43,680 nucleotides of DNA from Promethearchaeota archaeon (GTDB lineage Archaea; Asgardarchaeota; Lokiarchaeia; Sigyniarchaeales; SOKP01): the NCBI GenBank assembly GCA_020344955.1, contig CP070831.1, positions 2,131,726 through 2,175,405 on the forward strand. Reading direction: 5' to 3'. The notes beneath the pieces are model-generated. The model did not search any database. It was not told where the DNA came from and worked only from the letters and a program-made list of their open reading frames with translations. Position numbers and translations under genes: made by a program. This document shows positions 1 to 34,287 of this stretch, piece after piece (position 1 is the first letter of the stretch; each line of letters opens with the position of its first letter).

Positions 1-60
1 ATAATAGCTGGAATATATAAAGGAGTAAAGGGTACATCATATAAAAAGAAAAAAGCATAA
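1..60 (+). CDS. 3' end of an unidentified protein (partial)
   Basis: Frame 1 is open from the window edge to a TAA at 58-60 and encodes 19 residues ending in a lysine-rich tail (YKKKKA). A basic tail after a short mixed stretch is common at the C terminus of small archaeal proteins, but nothing identifies the family. It converges on the minus-strand small gene and RNA element that follow. It could be chance, since only 60 bases are visible. Confidence 0.4.
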   Translation: MIAGIYKGVKGTSYKKKKA

Positions 61-84: not shown

Positions 85-152
85 AAATCTCCAAGTTCTT
101 GCGGAACTCTAAATCAAATTCTATCATTTTATAACTTGATTAATTGAGATTT
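85..152 (-). ncRNA. Three-way-junction RNA element 1 (candidate SECIS-like 3' element)
   Basis: The minus-strand RNA starts six bases after the stop of the small gene at 158-295. Pairing by eye: an outer 7-bp stem (85-91 with 146-152), a hairpin with an 8-bp stem (113-120 with 133-140) and a 12-base loop, and a hairpin with a 5-bp stem (94-98 with 104-108) and loop CGCAA. One pair in the 8-bp stem is G-U only when the minus strand is the RNA; on the plus strand it would be A-C. This supports the strand. The same architecture recurs at 455-521 with compensatory changes. It does not obviously match the textbook archaeal or eukaryotic SECIS core. Confidence 0.6.
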
Positions 153-157
153 TTAGA

Positions 158-295
158 TTATTCTTTTTGAGCTTCTTGTTCTCTTAGTTTTCTTAGTTGT
201 TGTGCTCTTCGATACCACATGTTAAGCATTCCTCAGCTTGTACTATAGCAATCATCATCATACTCTAGATCCAGATAATCTTCTTGGTCCTCCAT
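158..295 (-). CDS. Candidate 45-residue micro-selenoprotein with in-frame TGA (copy 1)
   Basis: From ATG at 293-295 to TAA at 158-160 there are 45 codons, interrupted only by one TGA (233-235, residue 21). A GGTGAT motif about nine bases upstream is a good ribosome binding site. The N-terminal half is strongly acidic (many Asp, Glu and Tyr), then comes Cys16, then S-T-S before the TGA codon, then a short hydrophobic run (GMLNMW) and a basic, Gln-rich tail. Copy 2 at 507-680 has the same plan, with its TGA at an alignable place, and both are followed by the same folded RNA. I infer that TGA is read as selenocysteine. The alternative is a 20-residue peptide or a decayed gene. Function is unknown. 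Confidence 0.5.
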
Positions 296-454
296 TAGTT
301 ATAAATCACCTATTTACTAAGTTGTTCAAAATAAATAAAAGATAAAAGAGTGTTGTTTATAAAAAATAAAAACTCCCTAAAGAACATAAATTTTTTATAA
401 AAAAATATGGAATATTTTTAAGTTCCAATAAAAAAAGACAATTCCTATGATTTT

Positions 455-521
455 AATCTCGAATTCTTCGCGGAATTCATTAAAGTAGATTCTAGCTTTT
501 TATAATCTACTCCTTAAGATT
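455..521 (-). ncRNA. Three-way-junction RNA element 2 (candidate SECIS-like 3' element)
   Basis: This is the homologue of the element at 85-152. Outer 6-bp stem 455-460 with 516-521 (one G-U pair only on the minus strand), hairpin 485-491 with 504-510 around a 12-base loop, and a 6-bp hairpin 461-466 with 473-478 around CGCGAA. The 12-base loops of the two copies are nearly the same (AUAAAA at the 5' side, UAG at the 3' side), while the closing stem changes from AUCAA/UUGAU to GUAGA/UCUAC. That is covariation. Here the fold overlaps the last codons and the TAG stop of the small gene. Confidence 0.6.
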
Positions 522-680
522 TTTGATTTTAATTTTTGCTTGTTTTCTGTTTTGCCGTCGTTTTTTAATACCTCTTATGCATGCTATAACACTATCGACA
601 ATACTTCATCCAGTACAGTTAGATTCAGCATAATCAAAATCATCAAATTCATTGTCTAATTTACTTTTCCACTCTGACAT
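507..680 (-). CDS. Candidate 57-residue micro-selenoprotein with in-frame TGA (copy 2)
   Basis: From ATG at 678-680 to TAG at 507-509 there are 57 codons with one internal TGA (606-608, residue 25). The TGA is preceded by C-T-G, so a selenocysteine reading gives a C-x-x-U motif, the classic redox motif of selenoproteins. The order is acidic N terminus (FDDFDYAE), C-T-G-U, hydrophobic SIVDSVIACI, then a very basic tail (KKRRQNRK). Copy 1 shows the same order. There is no clear ribosome binding site. The stop codon lies inside the folded element 455-521. It could be a pseudogene, but a second copy with one TGA at the same place argues against random decay. Confidence 0.5.
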
Positions 681-2220: not shown

Positions 2221-2424
2221 ATGTCAGAAAGAACACCTCCTATTTGTTATAGCTGTGGCAATAGCTGTGAAAAACATATGGAAAATACTCATTATTGTAT
2301 ATGTGACATTGCTGTATGCCATGATTGCATTAATTCTGTTAAAAAAAATGATACAACTTGGATTTGCCCTCATTGTAAAGAAGAAAATGATATTGAAGAG
2401 AGCAAATTATTTAGATTAACTTAA
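2221..2424 (+). CDS. Mini RING-like zinc-finger protein
   Basis: The 67-residue protein is almost entirely one cysteine-rich module. Ligands in order: C9-x2-C12, then C27-x-C29, C34-x2-C37, and C50-x2-C53 in the sequence W-I-C-P-H-C. Four pairs in this order, closed by a W-x-C-P-x-C pair, fit a cross-brace RING-type fold of the C4C4 kind; H19, H25 and H35 are alternative ligands. Asgard archaea are known to encode ubiquitin, E1, E2 and small RING-type proteins, so an E3-like or adaptor role is possible, but no ubiquitin, E1 or E2 gene is in this window. A plain zinc ribbon pair is the main alternative. A second Cys-rich gene lies 0.7 kb downstream. Confidence 0.65.
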   Translation: MSERTPPICYSCGNSCEKHMENTHYCICDIAVCHDCINSVKKNDTTWICPHCKEENDIEESKLFRLT

Positions 2425-3138: not shown

Positions 3139-3747
3139 ATGAAGTCAAACATACCAAGAAAAATTGTAATAAAAGATTCAAAATTACGAAAAGTAAGGAA
3201 AAATCTAAGAGAGATTCTTAAATTAGCATATTTTACGGAATTCGAAAAGTGGTCAAATTTAGATGATATTTACCGGGAAAAACATCTCAATGGAAAAATC
3301 ACCCTTTCTCAAGAGAAAAGATGGTTTTTTCTATCCCAACAGCATGATAAGCTTAGAGCTATATACGATAAATCAATTTTGGAGTGCAATTTAGGTGCAG
3401 CTTGCCTTTCGCATCGAGAGCTGATGCAAAAGGGAGAGATTGATCCTTCCGATAGATCTACTGATCTTGATATGGTATGGGTGCCTTACTTCAAAGCATG
3501 GTTTTGCTTACGATGCTATGAAGAATATTTTAAAATTAAGGCATGTGAAAATTGCTGCAAAACAGATGAAAAGACAGCGGAGATATCAGAATGTTCATTT
3601 TGTAGTAAATATATCTGCGAAATTTGCTTAAATTATTGTTTAGAATGCGGAGATGATTATTGTGACATTTGTTATAAGGAACATTTGATTCGAGGGCGTT
3701 GTTGTTTTACACTCAAAGAGGATACAACTCAAATAAAATTCCTTTAG
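3139..3747 (+). CDS. Cysteine-rich zinc-binding protein with RING/B-box-like C terminus
   Basis: The 202-residue protein has a basic helical N terminus (about 1-75), then a first zinc module (C83, C89, C123, C126 around the aromatic segment V-W-V-P-Y-F-K-A-W-F). The C-terminal array is C136-x2-C139, C152-x2-C155, C160-x2-C163, C167-x2-C170, C175-x2-C178, H182, C188 and C189. The regular C-x2-C pairs at four- to twelve-residue spacing fit interleaved cross-brace zinc fingers (RING, B-box or TRIAD-like). The first part recalls zinc proteins that are frequent in Lokiarchaeal genomes. Nucleic-acid or ubiquitin-type protein binding are both open. Confidence 0.6.
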   Translation: MKSNIPRKIVIKDSKLRKVRKNLREILKLAYFTEFEKWSNLDDIYREKHLNGKITLSQEKRWFFLSQQHDKLRAIYDKSILECNLGAACLSHRELMQKGEIDPSDRSTDLDMVWVPYFKAWFCLRCYEEYFKIKACENCCKTDEKTAEISECSFCSKYICEICLNYCLECGDDYCDICYKEHLIRGRCCFTLKEDTTQIKFL

Positions 3748-28858: not shown

Positions 28859-29374
28859 ATGAAACACAGTTTAATTAGAGCTTTTCTATTTAGTTTAATT
28901 GTATTTCTAGCTTTAAATTTTCTTTTCTATATCATTGGATATTCTGTTGAAGATTTATTGTATTTACCACTTAGTCGTATTGCAGAACATCCAACTCATA
29001 TTATTTATCTGATAACTTACCCTGTTAATTGGTTTCCATGGGAACTTATAGAGGATTTTATAAGCGCTTCTTCCTTAGGATTTAAAATATATACTTTAGG
29101 AGGTTTTATTTCTTTTTTGATAGCTGCATTAATTGCAGGACTCATGGGAGGGAGTATAGGGAATGCTTTTATAGGATGGCTTATAACTTCTGGTTGTTTT
29201 ATTCTATTGATGATTTTAATGATCAGTATTGATCCTTTTAATTTAGGTTTTATTTGTACTATGTGTACTTTGGATGAAGGCATAGTGAGTATATTAATCA
29301 CAGGTATTGTTAACACTTTGATATTCGGAGCTTTAGTATTTGTAATTGCATTAATAAAAGGTAGATCAGATTAA
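28859..29374 (+). CDS. Four-helix membrane protein, duplicate A
   Basis: The 171-residue protein has helices near 8-28, 75-98, 102-123 and 148-167, with a conserved segment W-F-P-W-E (about 56-60) in the first outside loop and two Cys in C-T-M-C before the last helix. It is the paralogue of 30433-30954. Shared residues include R-A-F-x-F-S, F-P-W-E, G-G-S-I-x-N-A-F-x-G-W and the Cys pair, with total identity near 40% by eye. Function unknown. It is duplicated with carB's 3' end by chance of position, not obviously by function. Confidence 0.75.
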   Translation: MKHSLIRAFLFSLIVFLALNFLFYIIGYSVEDLLYLPLSRIAEHPTHIIYLITYPVNWFPWELIEDFISASSLGFKIYTLGGFISFLIAALIAGLMGGSIGNAFIGWLITSGCFILLMILMISIDPFNLGFICTMCTLDEGIVSILITGIVNTLIFGALVFVIALIKGRSD

Positions 29375-29401
29375 ATAGAACATTCCTTATTATAGCTTGT
29401 T

Positions 29402-30088
29402 CTACCAATATAGTTCTTTTAATGTTTGATGATATTCATTAAGAGATTTTATTTCACGCTCTTTTCTACGAATTTTTTCAATAGCTTCTATTAATACTTC
29501 AGTAAGTTGAAGGTTAATGATCACCGGAAGATTGTAATCTACTGCCATTCTTCGGATTTTATATTCATCTTCCATAATAGTCTTAAATTTTTCCTCTACA
29601 GTCGTAGGGAGGGGGATATTAATTACTAGGTCAATTGCACCATTTTGTAGACATCCCATAATGTTTGGTTCCATACCGTATTCATGTATTTTATAGAGTT
29701 TAACCGCATAAATTCCACTATTCTTTAAGGCAGCTGCGGTGTCTTCTGTGGCAAATATTGTAAATCCTAAATCTTTTAGCTTTTGAGCTAAGGGGATAAC
29801 TCTTTGTTTTAATTTTTTTCCACCTACAGATATTAAAACATTACCGCCATGGACTGGAATATGTATTTCAGCAGCTTCAAGTGATTTTATCAATGCATCG
29901 GAAAAATCTTCTCCAATACATGCTACTTCTCCAGTAGATGCCATCTCTACACCTAACACAGGGTCAGCTTTATCAAGGCGCATGAAAGAAAATATTGGAG
30001 CTTTTATAGATACATACTTCCCATAAGGTAATTTCATTATTCCTTGAGGAATTTTAGCGCCCATGAAGTCTTCAGCAGCAAGTCTCAT
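29402..30088 (-). CDS. Free-standing CarB C-terminal paralogue (part of ATP-grasp 2 plus MGS domain)
   Basis: The 228-residue frame equals the last 228 residues of CarB, with about 41 differences by my count (about 82% identical). It includes the end of the second ATP-grasp domain and the methylglyoxal-synthase-like allosteric domain (G-G-N-V-L-I-S-V-G-G, then N-I-P-L-P-T-T). The ATG at 30088 has GAGGT eight bases upstream; the same motif and ATG also exist inside carB at 31660. It kept an open frame and conservative changes, so it may be made and could bind effectors or CarB. The full CarB active sites are absent. It arose from the tandem duplication. Confidence 0.75.
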   Translation of the reverse strand: MRLAAEDFMGAKIPQGIMKLPYGKYVSIKAPIFSFMRLDKADPVLGVEMASTGEVACIGEDFSDALIKSLEAAEIHIPVHGGNVLISVGGKKLKQRVIPLAQKLKDLGFTIFATEDTAAALKNSGIYAVKLYKIHEYGMEPNIMGCLQNGAIDLVINIPLPTTVEEKFKTIMEDEYKIRRMAVDYNLPVIINLQLTEVLIEAIEKIRRKEREIKSLNEYHQTLKELYW

Positions 30089-30093
30089 TAAGT

Positions 30094-30207
30094 TTATACC
30101 TCTGGTTTTTGAAATCTCAGGTTACACTCAATTACAAATTTTTCTGCGACCTCCCATTGAGTACCAATAATTTTAAGTCGAATTGGAATGTATCCACGAT
30201 AATAGAT
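30094..30207 (-). pseudogene. Chimeric junction remnant: RAM-gene start joined to carB
   Basis: Reading the minus strand from ATC at 30205-30207 gives the RAM start (I-Y-Y-R-G-Y-I-P-I-R-L-K-I-I-G-T-Q-W) and then, in the same frame, V-I-E-C-N-L-R from CarB, ending at TAA 30094-30096. Compared with carB, 22 bases (31689-31710 in carB) are missing here, which shifted the frame. Before that loss, the join would have been an in-frame fusion of about 24 RAM residues to the CarB C terminus. It is now a relic. Confidence 0.7.
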
Positions 30208-31732
30208 CGACGTTACACCAATTTCATATATATTACTTGAAAACTAAGATCTTTTCAATATTTATAATAGATTAAAATTAATTTTTTAGAATTTTTCAGG
30301 ATTTCTATCAATGAGATGTATATTGAAAATCGACAATCTTTGTATTAAATTATAAAATTTAAAAGCTTTAACAAATCTATCTACAATTATTAACCAATTT
30401 TTATTTCTTGACAAAAAAGAGTTGTTTAAAAAATGAAAAAGAGTCTTGGGAGAGCTTTCATTTTTAGTTTTATCGCTTTTGCATTAGTAGGTTTATTATT
30501 TCTAATCATCGCATATTCAATAGGGGATTCTATCGATGTGTTATTTACTATGTTTAGCCAGCATCCAGGTTTGATAATAGAATATATACTAAGACCACTT
30601 CGGTATTTTCCATGGGAAATTTTTAATGAATTTTTTACTACGCTCTATGTATCAACAAAAACATGGTACATAGGAATGTTTGTAGCATTAATCATAGCTT
30701 CTCTCGTCGCGGGAATTACAGGGGGAAGTATAAAGAACGCTTTTCTTGGATGGGCTTTAATGATGATCTTTAGCATTATACTATATATTATACCTTTTAG
30801 TTTCGATTATTTGACTTTAAATCATACTTGTGGTTCATGTACTTATTTAGAAGGAGTTATTAAGGTTGTATTTATAGGTATTATACATATATTAATATTT
30901 GGCTGTATTACAATATTTACTGCGCTAATAATTGGGAGACGTAAAAAATACTGATAGTTTTATTCTAAATTTAATCTACCAATATATTTTTTTTAATGTT
31001 TTATGATATTCATTAAGCGACTTAATCTCAACTTCCTTTCTTCTGACATTTTCTATTGCGTCTACGAGTGCCTCAGCAAGCTGCAAATTAATAATTACAG
31101 GAATGTTGTAATCAACTGCCATTCTTCTTATTTTATATTCATCTTCCATTATGGTTCTAAATTTTTCTTCAATTGTAGTAGGAAGGGGAATATTAATCAC
31201 TAAATCAATTGCTCCATTTTGCAGACATCCCATTATATTTGGTTCTAAACCATACTCATGAATCTTATAGAGTTTCACTGCATAAATTCCATTATTTTTT
31301 AATGCTAATGAAGTATCTTTAGTAGCAAAAATTGTAAATCCTAGATTTTTTAATTTCTTCGCTAAAGGAATCATACGTTTTTTCAATTCCTCTCCACCTA
31401 CTGATATTAAAACATTTCCGCCATGAATTGGTATGTTCATTTCTGTCGCTTCAAGAGATTTAATTAAAGCATCGGGAAAATCATCTCCAATACAGGCTAC
31501 TTCTCCCGTAGAAGCCATTTCAACAGAGAGCAAGGGATCAGCTTTATCAAGTCTCATAAATGAGAACATTGGAGCTTTTATGGAAACATAATTTCCATAG
31601 GGGAGTTCCATAAGATATTTAGGAATTTCTTTCCCCATAAAAACCTCAGCAGCTAATCTCATTAGGTTAATACCTCGGGTTTTTGAAACATAAGGCATAG
31701 ATCGACTCGATCTAAGATTACATTCTATTACA
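30137..31732. repeat. Tandem duplication, copy B (about 1.6 kb)
   Basis: It matches copy A (28582-30136) in the same order. The carB part is intact here and continues into the whole gene, whereas the RAM gene is only a remnant; in copy A the reverse holds. This is the expected outcome of one tandem duplication with the join at 30136/30137. Confidence 0.85.
30433..30954 (+). CDS. Four-helix membrane protein, duplicate B
   Basis: The 173-residue paralogue of 28859-29374 has the same four helices, F-P-W-E segment and Cys pair (C-G-S-C), but differs at more than half its residues. The flanking carB duplicate kept about 82% identity, so the membrane proteins diverged faster. It ends 22 bases from carB in converging orientation. 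Confidence 0.75.
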   Translation: MKKSLGRAFIFSFIAFALVGLLFLIIAYSIGDSIDVLFTMFSQHPGLIIEYILRPLRYFPWEIFNEFFTTLYVSTKTWYIGMFVALIIASLVAGITGGSIKNAFLGWALMMIFSIILYIIPFSFDYLTLNHTCGSCTYLEGVIKVVFIGIIHILIFGCITIFTALIIGRRKKY

Positions 31733-34287
31733 TATACTTCATCGTTTTTTATTAGATATTGAACATTAAAAGGACCTCTTATTCTTAAAGCTAAGGCAAT
31801 TTCTTTCGTATTTTTTTCTATTATTTTAATAATTTCATCAGAAATTGTTTGAGGAGGTATTGACATTGTAGCGTCTCCAGAATGAACACCAGCATTTTCA
31901 ATGTGTTCCACAATAGCTCCAATAAATACTTTTTTTCCATCACTGACACCATCAGCTTCAATTTCTCTTGCTCCTGTGAAGAATTTGGTAATAACCACAG
32001 GATATTCTTGAGAAACTGCTACAGCGAGATCAAGAGTATCTCTTAAAGTTTTTTCGTCGTAAGACACTCTCATTGCAGCACCACTTAGAACATAAGAAGG
32101 TCTAACTAATACAGGGTAACCAACATCTTTAGCAAATTTTAAAGCTTCATCTTTGCTTGTTAGCATACTCCATTGTGGTTGTTTTATAGCAAGTTGATCT
32201 AATAAGCTACTAAACTTTGAACGATCTTCTGCCATGTCAATACGACTTCCATGTGTTCCAAGAATGTTAAGACCTGCTTTTCTGAAGATTTCAGAATATT
32301 TAGAAAATTTTGTAGCAAGATTTTGAGCAATTTGTCCACCTACTGAAACAATTACTCCTTCTGCTTTTTCAAGTTCACAGATATCTAGTACTCTTTCACC
32401 AGATAATTCCTCAAAATATAATTTATCCGAAGTATCATAATCAGTGGAAACCGTTTCGGGATTATAATTAATCATTATTGCTTGATCTATACCTAAATTT
32501 TTTAATCCCCATAAACAATTAACTGAACCCCAATCAAATTCAACTGATGCTCCGATGCGATAGGTTCCTGAGCCTAAAACGATAACTTTTCTAAGATTTT
32601 CCTTATATTCTTTCTCAAAATCAATATCATGTTCAGAAGCACTATAAGTTAGATATAAATAATTTGTAATTGCTGGCCATTCAGCAGCTAAAGTATCAAT
32701 TCTTTTGACAAACGGGTGGATTTCCAACCTCCTCCTCATTTGTCTTATAAAAATTGTATCGACGCCTATTAAAATTGCGATTTGCCCATCAGAGAAACCA
32801 TATCGTTTAGCTCTTTCCAGCCAATATTTTTTTTCATAATCATCTGTTTCTAATAGATCAAGGTCTTTAAGTTGTTGTTCGATATCGATAATATTTTTTA
32901 ATTTATATAAGAACCACTTATCTACTCGAGATAACCGATAGATTTCCTCAATTGCAATATCTTTTTTAATAGCTTCAGCAAGTCTAAAGACTCTCAAATC
33001 AGTAGGATTTCTTAAAGCATATTTTAATTCATTTATATCCTTAATAGGTTCTAAATTATTTGCTACAAGTCCTTTCATTCCTATGTCAAGCATCCTAATA
33101 GCTTTTTGAAGAACTTCCTCAAATGTTCGACCAATTGCCATTACCTCACCAACACTTTTCATCTGAGAGCCGATTTTGCGATCAACTTTTTGGAATTTTG
33201 TTAAATCCCATCTAGGAATTTTAAGTACTAAATAATCTAATGCAGGCTCGAAACATGCTGTAGTTATCCCTGTAATCTTATTTTTTAGTTCTGGTAATGT
33301 GTAACCTATTGCTAATTTTGCTGCTATATATGCTAGAGGATATCCAGTCGCTTTAGATGCGAGTGCTGAAGATCTTGAGAGTCGGGCATTTACTTCAATT
33401 GCCCTAAATTCTTTTGAAAATGGATCTAAACCATATTGAATATTACATTCTCCAATAATTCCAAGATTTCTAATAACTCTGATAGAAGCTGAACGGAGCA
33501 TTTGGTATTCCTCATTTGTGAGAGTTTGGCTAGGACTTATCACGATTGACTCACCTGTATGGAGTCCTACAGGATCGAAGTTTTCCATATTACAATTAAT
33601 AAAACAGTTATCTTCGGAATCTCTTACAACTTCATATTCGATCTCCTTCCAACCCCATATACTTTCCTCTATTAATATCTGATTTATACGAGATTGTGCT
33701 AAACCTTTTTTAGCCATTCGTTCAAATTCCTTCATATTCTTTACAATACCTGATCCACGACCTCCCAATGTATAAGCTACTCGAATCATACAAGGAAATC
33801 CAATCTTATTTACGGCATTTATCGCTTCAGTATATGAATTTACAGCTTGGCTTTTACATACTTTAACAGCTGATTTTTCCATTGCTTTTACAAATAAATC
33901 TCGATCTTCTGTTGCTTCAATAGATTCAATTGGGGTTCCCAATACTCTAACATTATATTTTTTCAAAATTCCTAATTCATTTAGTTCAACACCTACATTT
34001 AGAGCAGTTTGACCTCCAAATGCTAATAAAATTCCATCAGGTCGCTCTTTTTTAATAACTCGTTCTACATAATCAATATTTAGAGGTAATAAATACAATG
34101 TATCGGATAATTGTGGATCAGTTTGAATTGTGGCAATATTAGGATTAATTACGATTGTTTCTATACCCTCTTCTTTCAAAGCTTTTAAAACTTGTGAACC
34201 ACTATAATCAAATTCTCCAGCTTGTCCAATACGAATACCTCCGGAACCTAAAACCAATGCCTTTTTGATTGATTTATCTAAAGGAAT
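30976..34287 (-). CDS. carB: Carbamoyl-phosphate synthase large subunit, apparent ATT start
   Basis: It makes carbamoyl phosphate from bicarbonate, ammonia (from CarA) and two ATP. Two ATP-grasp halves, each opening with a nucleotide-binding start (L-G-S-G-G-I-R-I-G-Q-A and V-L-G-S-G-T-Y-R-I-G-A), flank an oligomerisation region (about 400-550), and an MGS-like allosteric domain ends the protein. The first usual start codon, TTG at 34255-34257, would cut off I-P-L-D-K-S-I-K-K-A, whereas most CarB proteins begin M-P-x-x-x-x-I-K-K-V-L-V-x-G-S-G. ATT at 34285-34287 gives this start exactly, two bases after carA's stop with GGGGG ten bases upstream. Full length about 1103 residues. Confidence 0.95.
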   Translation of the reverse strand: MPLDKSIKKALVLGSGGIRIGQAGEFDYSGSQVLKALKEEGIETIVINPNIATIQTDPQLSDTLYLLPLNIDYVERVIKKERPDGILLAFGGQTALNVGVELNELGILKKYNVRVLGTPIESIEATEDRDLFVKAMEKSAVKVCKSQAVNSYTEAINAVNKIGFPCMIRVAYTLGGRGSGIVKNMKEFERMAKKGLAQSRINQILIEESIWGWKEIEYEVVRDSEDNCFINCNMENFDPVGLHTGESIVISPSQTLTNEEYQMLRSASIRVIRNLGIIGECNIQYGLDPFSKEFRAIEVNARLSRSSALASKATGYPLAYIAAKLAIGYTLPELKNKITGITTACFEPALDYLVLKIPRWDLTKFQKVDRKIGSQMKSVGEVMAIGRTFEEVLQKAIRMLDIGMKGLVANNLEPIKDINELKYALRNPTDLRVFRLAEAIKKDIAIEEIYRLSRVDKWFLYKLKNIIDIEQQLKDLDLLETDDYEKKYWLERAKRYGFSDGQIAILIGVDTIFIRQMRRRLEIHPFVKRIDTLAAEWPAITNYLYLTYSASEHDIDFEKEYKENLRKVIVLGSGTYRIGASVEFDWGSVNCLWGLKNLGIDQAIMINYNPETVSTDYDTSDKLYFEELSGERVLDICELEKAEGVIVSVGGQIAQNLATKFSKYSEIFRKAGLNILGTHGSRIDMAEDRSKFSSLLDQLAIKQPQWSMLTSKDEALKFAKDVGYPVLVRPSYVLSGAAMRVSYDEKTLRDTLDLAVAVSQEYPVVITKFFTGAREIEADGVSDGKKVFIGAIVEHIENAGVHSGDATMSIPPQTISDEIIKIIEKNTKEIALALRIRGPFNVQYLIKNDEVYVIECNLRSSRSMPYVSKTRGINLMRLAAEVFMGKEIPKYLMELPYGNYVSIKAPMFSFMRLDKADPLLSVEMASTGEVACIGDDFPDALIKSLEATEMNIPIHGGNVLISVGGEELKKRMIPLAKKLKNLGFTIFATKDTSLALKNNGIYAVKLYKIHEYGLEPNIMGCLQNGAIDLVINIPLPTTIEEKFRTIMEDEYKIRRMAVDYNIPVIINLQLAEALVDAIENVRRKEVEIKSLNEYHKTLKKIYW

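Follow-up and report, generated by a model that had tools for sequence, protein, structure and literature searches.

Two minus-strand frames of 57 and 45 codons, representing families referred to here as A and B, were analysed in a window of 43,680 nucleotides from a Lokiarchaeon (bases 2131726-2175405 of the 3.34 Mb source genome, a single contig). They very probably encode two tiny selenoproteins, each with a single in-frame UGA that is translated as selenocysteine (Sec) with the help of an RNA element on the 3' side. Decoding would be carried out by the archaeal Sec machinery and directed in cis by this element, which begins at the stop codon or immediately downstream of it. Both families show the gene-level hallmark of selenoproteins, i.e., a conserved in-frame UGA with coding sequence on both sides. 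An earlier note, made from the letters of the window, had put the two frames forward as candidate novel selenoproteins, and this proposal is supported by the conserved TGA-containing frames, Sec/Cys exchange, the presence of Sec machinery and the lack of homology to known families.

Genes, neighbourhood and 3' RNA elements

The family A gene (copy 2 of the earlier note) is located at window positions 507..680 on the minus strand, with ATG at 680 and the stop codon TAG at 509-507, and encodes a protein of 57 amino acids, starting with MSEWK and ending with NLKE. Its UGA codon 25 (606..608, minus strand) is read as Sec within N-C-T-G-U-S, based on the homologues and on frame-specific selection downstream. 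The family B gene (copy 1; 158..295, minus strand, ATG at 295, stop codon TAA at 160-158) encodes 45 amino acids, from MEDQE to AQKE, and its UGA codon 21 (233..235, minus strand) is read as Sec within C-Y-S-T-S-U-G, based on the homologues, one of which (G017/L092) has Cys at this site. Re-reading of both frames confirmed their lengths, the ATG starts, the single in-frame TGA of each at residues 25 and 21, the acidic N-terminal halves and the basic tails. Two further details of the earlier description were retained in part. The sequence described as a hydrophobic stretch after the TGA is present, but an amphipathic helix fits it better; the C-x-x-U motif is found in copy 2 (CTGU), but it is not universal, B having C-x4-U and some A proteins other spacings.

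Across much of the taxonomic family, the gene order leading to A and B comprises a transporter (CitMHS), three unknown genes and a membrane protein, while B is followed by a convergent nucleotide-sugar dehydrogenase and then by a rhomboid and a response regulator. Since this gap holds no further genes on the strand of A and B, the two likely form their own transcription unit(s). A parallel between the rhomboid-B pairing and eukaryotic SelS/SelK-Derlin was considered and dropped, since the nucleotide-sugar dehydrogenase lies between them in most genomes. The source genome has a second A/B locus (L051; G000:C1:189.9-191.5 kb) with a partly masked A copy and two more B genes, and the same locus holds the rhomboid-response regulator-methyltransferase-radical SAM block that follows B in relatives. 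At the start of the window, only the last 19 rhomboid codons (2-58, plus strand) are visible before a masked stretch, and it seems that the rhomboid block was split by recombination between B copies. Near the conserved block, two small cysteine-rich proteins are encoded (window 2221-2424 and 3139-3747), for one of which a RING-like zinc finger gave a weak match that does not reach the curated cut-off (E 4e-4). Further along the window, a tandem duplication (28859-34257) surrounds the carbamoyl phosphate synthase large subunit gene, where a 228-codon copy of its C-terminal part (29402-30088) lies beside the full gene (30976-34257) and related small membrane proteins adjoin each copy (28859-29374 and 30433-30954).

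Both frames are followed by RNA of a common architecture, in agreement with the earlier note, and this RNA is a putative SECIS. It would form a three-way junction composed of a closing stem (S1), a long stem with an A-rich apical loop ending UAG (S2) and a hairpin abutting the closing stem (S3). In A, the element (about 455..521, minus strand) overlaps the stop codon and comprises S1 (AAUCUU 521-516 with GAGAUU 460-455), S2 (513-504 with 491-482) and S3 (GAAUUC-CGCGAA-GAAUUC, 478-461). The 5' strand of S1 lies within the last codons of the ORF, which accounts for the C-terminal N-L-K-E/D motif being conserved in A and absent from A proteins that stop earlier. In B, the element (about 86..151, minus strand) is located outside the interval 158-680 originally reported, with S1 at 151-146 (AAUCUC) and 91-86 (GAGAUU), S2 at 141-133 and 120-112, and S3 (AGUUC-CGCAA-GAACU) at 108-94.

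The core of S1 (UCUC/GAGA) is near-invariant within the family, so covariation there argues neither for nor against this stem; between the element families (FlpD, selD and A/B), however, S1 changes compensatorily. Covariation was found for S2, an 11 bp helix with compensatory changes in 10 of its 11 pairs, which scored 0.409, compared with 0.186 for shuffled data (0/500 as high) and at most 0.141 for slid versions. Its loop of 11-12 nt starts A-rich, has A at two invariant positions and almost always terminates in UAG. The S3 hairpin of 5-6 bp, with a loop that is usually CGCAA or similar, is mostly 0-1 base away from S1, and its pairs vary (CG/UA, UA/CG, GC/AU/UA); the mean stem length was 5.7 bp versus 3.4 bp in shuffled sequences, the register being that of the longest stem in both cases. 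Single-sequence folds were excluded as evidence after the 3' region of copy 2 with its flanks folded no better than its shuffles (z -0.39), and an Rfam scan of the window gave no match.

Relation of the element to known SECIS and to the genes

The AUGA_GA quartet is the core of Asgard eSECIS-like structures (types I and II), in which it lies at the base of an upper stem of 7-15 bp (PMC11227280). The genes with such elements, i.e., selD, hdrA/frhD (FlpD), frhA and prxL (Huang et al. 2024, PMC11227280), have genome and machinery in common with A and B, and their elements, like those of A and B, lie on the 3' side, overlapping or after the stop codon, and have an A-rich apical loop; the upper stem of an eSECIS-like structure is also present in the A/B element. 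In contrast to the A/B elements under a strict search, they carry AUGA_GA. The closest likeness was found with the FlpD element of the source genome (S1 CCGAU/AUCGG, AUGA, S2, loop AUAAAUCUUAG, UGA, S3 CCCUUGCAAGGG), which has the S1-S2-S3 layout in common with A/B, where the loop reads AUAAAAUGUUAG. Both selD elements can be drawn in this way too, with GAUG/CAUC as S1, the quartet in S2 and a short S3, and in the known SECIS of the selD pair and of flpD (L004, L005 and L133) S3 can be drawn abutting the closing stem. The published SECIS model has no S3 hairpin, and a three-way arrangement might be a general feature. A covariance model of the A/B RNA (R1) run on the source genome did not match the selD and FlpD elements, and the euryarchaeal eaSECIS GAA_A bulge was seen at 6 of 60 A/B genes, with 8.0 expected from shuffles.

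It could be that the A/B element simply belongs to the known class of Asgard SECIS, with a hidden canonical eSECIS-like quartet that our strict search missed. We regard this as unlikely, while giving it appreciable weight, because the three-way layout and the near-identical S2 loop are those of the FlpD SECIS, which has AUGA_GA, because AUGA precedes S3 in some A genes, and because noncanonical pairs take many forms and the search applied here was strict, whereas the published one was loose and allowed indels. Against a hidden quartet, the same strict search (AUGA/GUGA..GA) that recovered all four known SECIS of the source genome gave matches at only 6 of 60 A/B genes, where chance would give 1.2, and these matches lie at places that are not homologous; the expected quartet position is taken by standard pairs that covary (columns 15-17 pairing with 47-49). 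The folded 3' RNA of the earlier note stands, but as a putative SECIS it does not have the published eukaryote-like form. The shared layout and loop, the missing AUGA_GA, the failed GAA_A model and the standard pairs point to a SECIS of the Asgard layout without the quartet. We lean towards the view that the A/B elements form a distinct SECIS subclass, in which ordinary base pairs replace the quartet, regarded as the core of eukaryotic as well as Asgard SECIS; the quartet would then be dispensable for archaeal Sec insertion, and recognition may proceed via the A-rich loop with its terminal UAG and via the three-way junction that S3 helps to form, both shared with the FlpD SECIS.

The link between the element and the genes was analysed with a covariance model derived solely from the RNA. 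In the source genome, the model found five copies (E 1e-12 or better), all at A/B genes, and none at other genes, the next match having an E-value of 0.9. Across the family, 75 copies were found in 65 genomes, and 72 of them begin between -32 and +16 bases relative to the end of an A/B match. The remaining three concern an A gene with a part masked by N, an A gene truncated at a contig end, and genome G032, where the first protein profile gave no match and the RNA was found first; the DNA upstream of it encodes an ORF with CTGU (starting with MENKI and ending with NLNS). This very divergent A/B-type gene, also found by the second profile, which included G032, is a blind confirmation of the gene-RNA pairing. 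The element is absent from 18 genomes of the family, and A and B are absent from the same 18.

A natural experiment on what this SECIS is was provided by a Cys variant, of the kind that the earlier note had suggested looking for at the TGA site. Sec/Cys exchange was found in one homologue of B and in none of A: the B gene of G017 (L092, isolate 9R3_44) encodes C-Y-Y-T-S-C-S-L-I-N-M-W, with Cys in place of Sec, and no element is recognisable near it, the best unfiltered score in the surrounding kilobase being 10 bits, compared with 46-88 bits at other A/B genes. The neighbouring A gene carries TGA and has kept its element (80.5 bits). Among the B genes, only the Cys-containing one does not have the 3' RNA, and the element is present for all TGA-containing genes, which is as expected if the element serves only UGA decoding. 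In G141 (L070, G141:C31:7706-8087), A and B are located 19 bases apart and a single element follows B, so one SECIS apparently serves two selenoprotein genes and would be able to act on two UGAs at once. From the co-occurrence and the Cys variant we infer that the A/B element is a SECIS.

That the element closes each gene on the 3' side and fits neither the eSECIS nor the eaSECIS model would also suit a terminator, a processing site or an sRNA unrelated to UGA decoding, the real SECIS being elsewhere. We consider this very unlikely, given that the element is missing at the one Cys gene and present for all TGA genes, that the 18 genomes without A/B do not have it, that the A-B pair of G141 has a single copy, and that the layout and loop match those of the FlpD SECIS. 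Moreover, canonical SECIS matches within 400 nt were found for 9 of 60 genes, only slightly above the 4.3 expected by chance.

Conservation of the frames and the selenocysteine machinery

Family A was found in 46 genomes with the second profile (45 with the first), all within one Lokiarchaeial taxonomic family. Family B comprises 29 genes distributed over 27 genomes, with the source genome contributing three, and it was independently recovered in 20 loci of GTDB genomes, the relatives being Lokiarchaeota/Lokiarchaeia MAGs. Searches for A or B beyond their own taxonomic family gave noise-level matches only, without TGA at the site. In all 46 A genomes, TGA occupies the CTGU (or equivalent) codon and other stops occur only at the frame end; within B, there are 28 genes with TGA and one with Cys. 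Amongst the distinct extracted genes of both families, TGA was present in 60 of 61 and Cys in the remaining one. These numbers bear out the view of the earlier note that decay does not readily explain the TGA at the same place, and they also go well beyond chance. The random stops or frameshifts that would have spoken for decay were not seen in the homologues, which have a single TGA at the same codon and differ in length by whole codons.

As per-codon-position change counts were too saturated to decide the matter, pN/pS by frame was used in their place. After the TGA, pN/pS in frame was 0.47 for A (codon bootstrap 0.34-0.63) and 0.40 for B (0.27-0.55), in comparison with 0.94-1.11 for the two other frames of the same DNA, i.e., purifying selection after the TGA is frame-specific in both families. 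In A, Asp is found four residues after U in 34 of 34 distinct genes, and hydrophobic residues recur at +2, +3, +6, +7, +10 and +13 from U; the C-terminal tail sequences of A and B drift.

The source genome encodes SepSecS (E 8e-145) with an adjoining tRNA-Sec (UCA anticodon), and a second tRNA-Sec copy adjoins a SepSecS fragment. Two tandem selD genes carry one TGA each, and hdrA and flpD also have an in-frame TGA. Sec users were defined by Huang et al. 2024 (PMC11227280) as having at least three components and one known selenoprotein; here, SelD, SepSecS and tRNA-Sec are accompanied by TGA-containing selD, hdrA and flpD. Of the machinery named in the earlier note, SepSecS, tRNA-Sec and SelD (two genes) are in place. 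The presence of SepSecS in genomes with A/B agrees with Sec use but is weak evidence, because nearly the whole family has it. Both tRNA-Sec loci (L002 and L003; G000:C1:777922-778292 and 1143837-1145400) show an apparent extra stretch between the acceptor and the D arm, were missed by ARAGORN and fall under the Rfam cut-off. They account for two of three sub-threshold Rfam tRNA-Sec matches in the genome; the third was rejected as a tRNA-Gly.

Readthrough and Sec insertion are indistinguishable in DNA, and UGA might instead specify a standard amino acid, through near-cognate reading or reassignment, with the 3' RNA acting as another kind of readthrough signal; this is highly improbable in view of SepSecS, tRNA-Sec (UCA) and the TGA-containing selD, hdrA and flpD, of Cys as the only alternative residue at the site and a Cys shortly before U in every extracted gene, and of the layout and apical loop common to the 3' RNA and the FlpD SECIS. 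Equally implausible, for all the tiny size of the genes and the drift of their tails, is that the UGAs are true stops yielding acidic peptides of 20 and 24 residues, the downstream frames being leftovers of decayed genes: the frame-specific selection after UGA, the constant Asp, the Cys homologue without a stop at the site and the 0 decayed frames among about 75 genes all contradict it.

Predicted proteins and significance

The two frames had been regarded as independent of each other, and this was not borne out. A profile-profile comparison of A with B (E 4e-5, probability 70%) aligned U on U, and the families are probably distant paralogues. Neither A nor B matched Pfam or NCBIfam entries up to E 1 or any PDB entry, and in these databases no homology was found to SelD, FrhA, HdrA, FrhD, Prx-like, AhpF-N or DsbA-like proteins.

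In every extracted A protein, U is preceded by a Cys, mostly at a distance of two residues and in a few cases further off, while all extracted B proteins have C-x4-U. For A, AlphaFold predicted with modest confidence a helix-turn-helix in which C-x-x-U occupies the turn and the beginning of helix 2, and for B a single helix beginning two residues before the conserved Cys; given the pTM of 0.36-0.41, only secondary structure was used from these models. The predicted protein plan thus consists of an acidic N-terminal tail, a Cys, a Sec a few residues further on and a long basic amphipathic helix starting near Sec. The constancy of the Cys-Sec pair suggests a redox peptide in which both residues form a selenenylsulfide. 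Such peptides might be small redox carriers or reductants that dock via the helix on a partner or on each other, and the acidic tail that is conserved in B (DYLDLEFDDDCY) points to a docking site. This redox reading, drawn from the motif, is tentative and less likely than not to hold in detail.

Among known selenoproteins, the VhuU-type hydrogenase micro-selenoprotein of methanococci is a tiny, split-off end of a NiFe hydrogenase subunit. It is an archaeal selenoprotein similar in size to A and B, but it has a metal-site motif, whereas A and B have no hydrogenase match and carry C-x2-U or C-x4-U. SelW, SelT, SelM, SelH and bacterial thioredoxin-like proteins are C-x-x-U redox selenoproteins, and they resemble A and B in having a Cys a few residues before Sec and Sec at a helix start. 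They are, however, thioredoxin-like, whereas A and B are about 50 aa long, all-helical in the models and without such a domain.

In the literature, seven Asgard selenoprotein families are listed, namely SelD, FrhA, HdrA, FrhD, Prx-like, AhpF-N-like and DsbA-like (PMC11227280; PMC13188914, a review from 2026). All seven were recognised by their homology to known families, which was the search principle of the 2024 survey, covering more than 400 Asgard genomes (PMC11227280). No description of A or B was found in the literature up to May 2026, a comparison that did not extend to the 2016 Lokiarchaeota paper. A and B are therefore very probably two new selenoprotein families, which are probably paralogous. 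They add families that are out of reach of homology-based searches, and the Asgard selenoproteome appears to be under-counted for proteins of about 50 aa. If the quartet is truly absent from their elements, this would bear on SECIS recognition in archaea without SBP2 and on the origin of the eukaryotic system.
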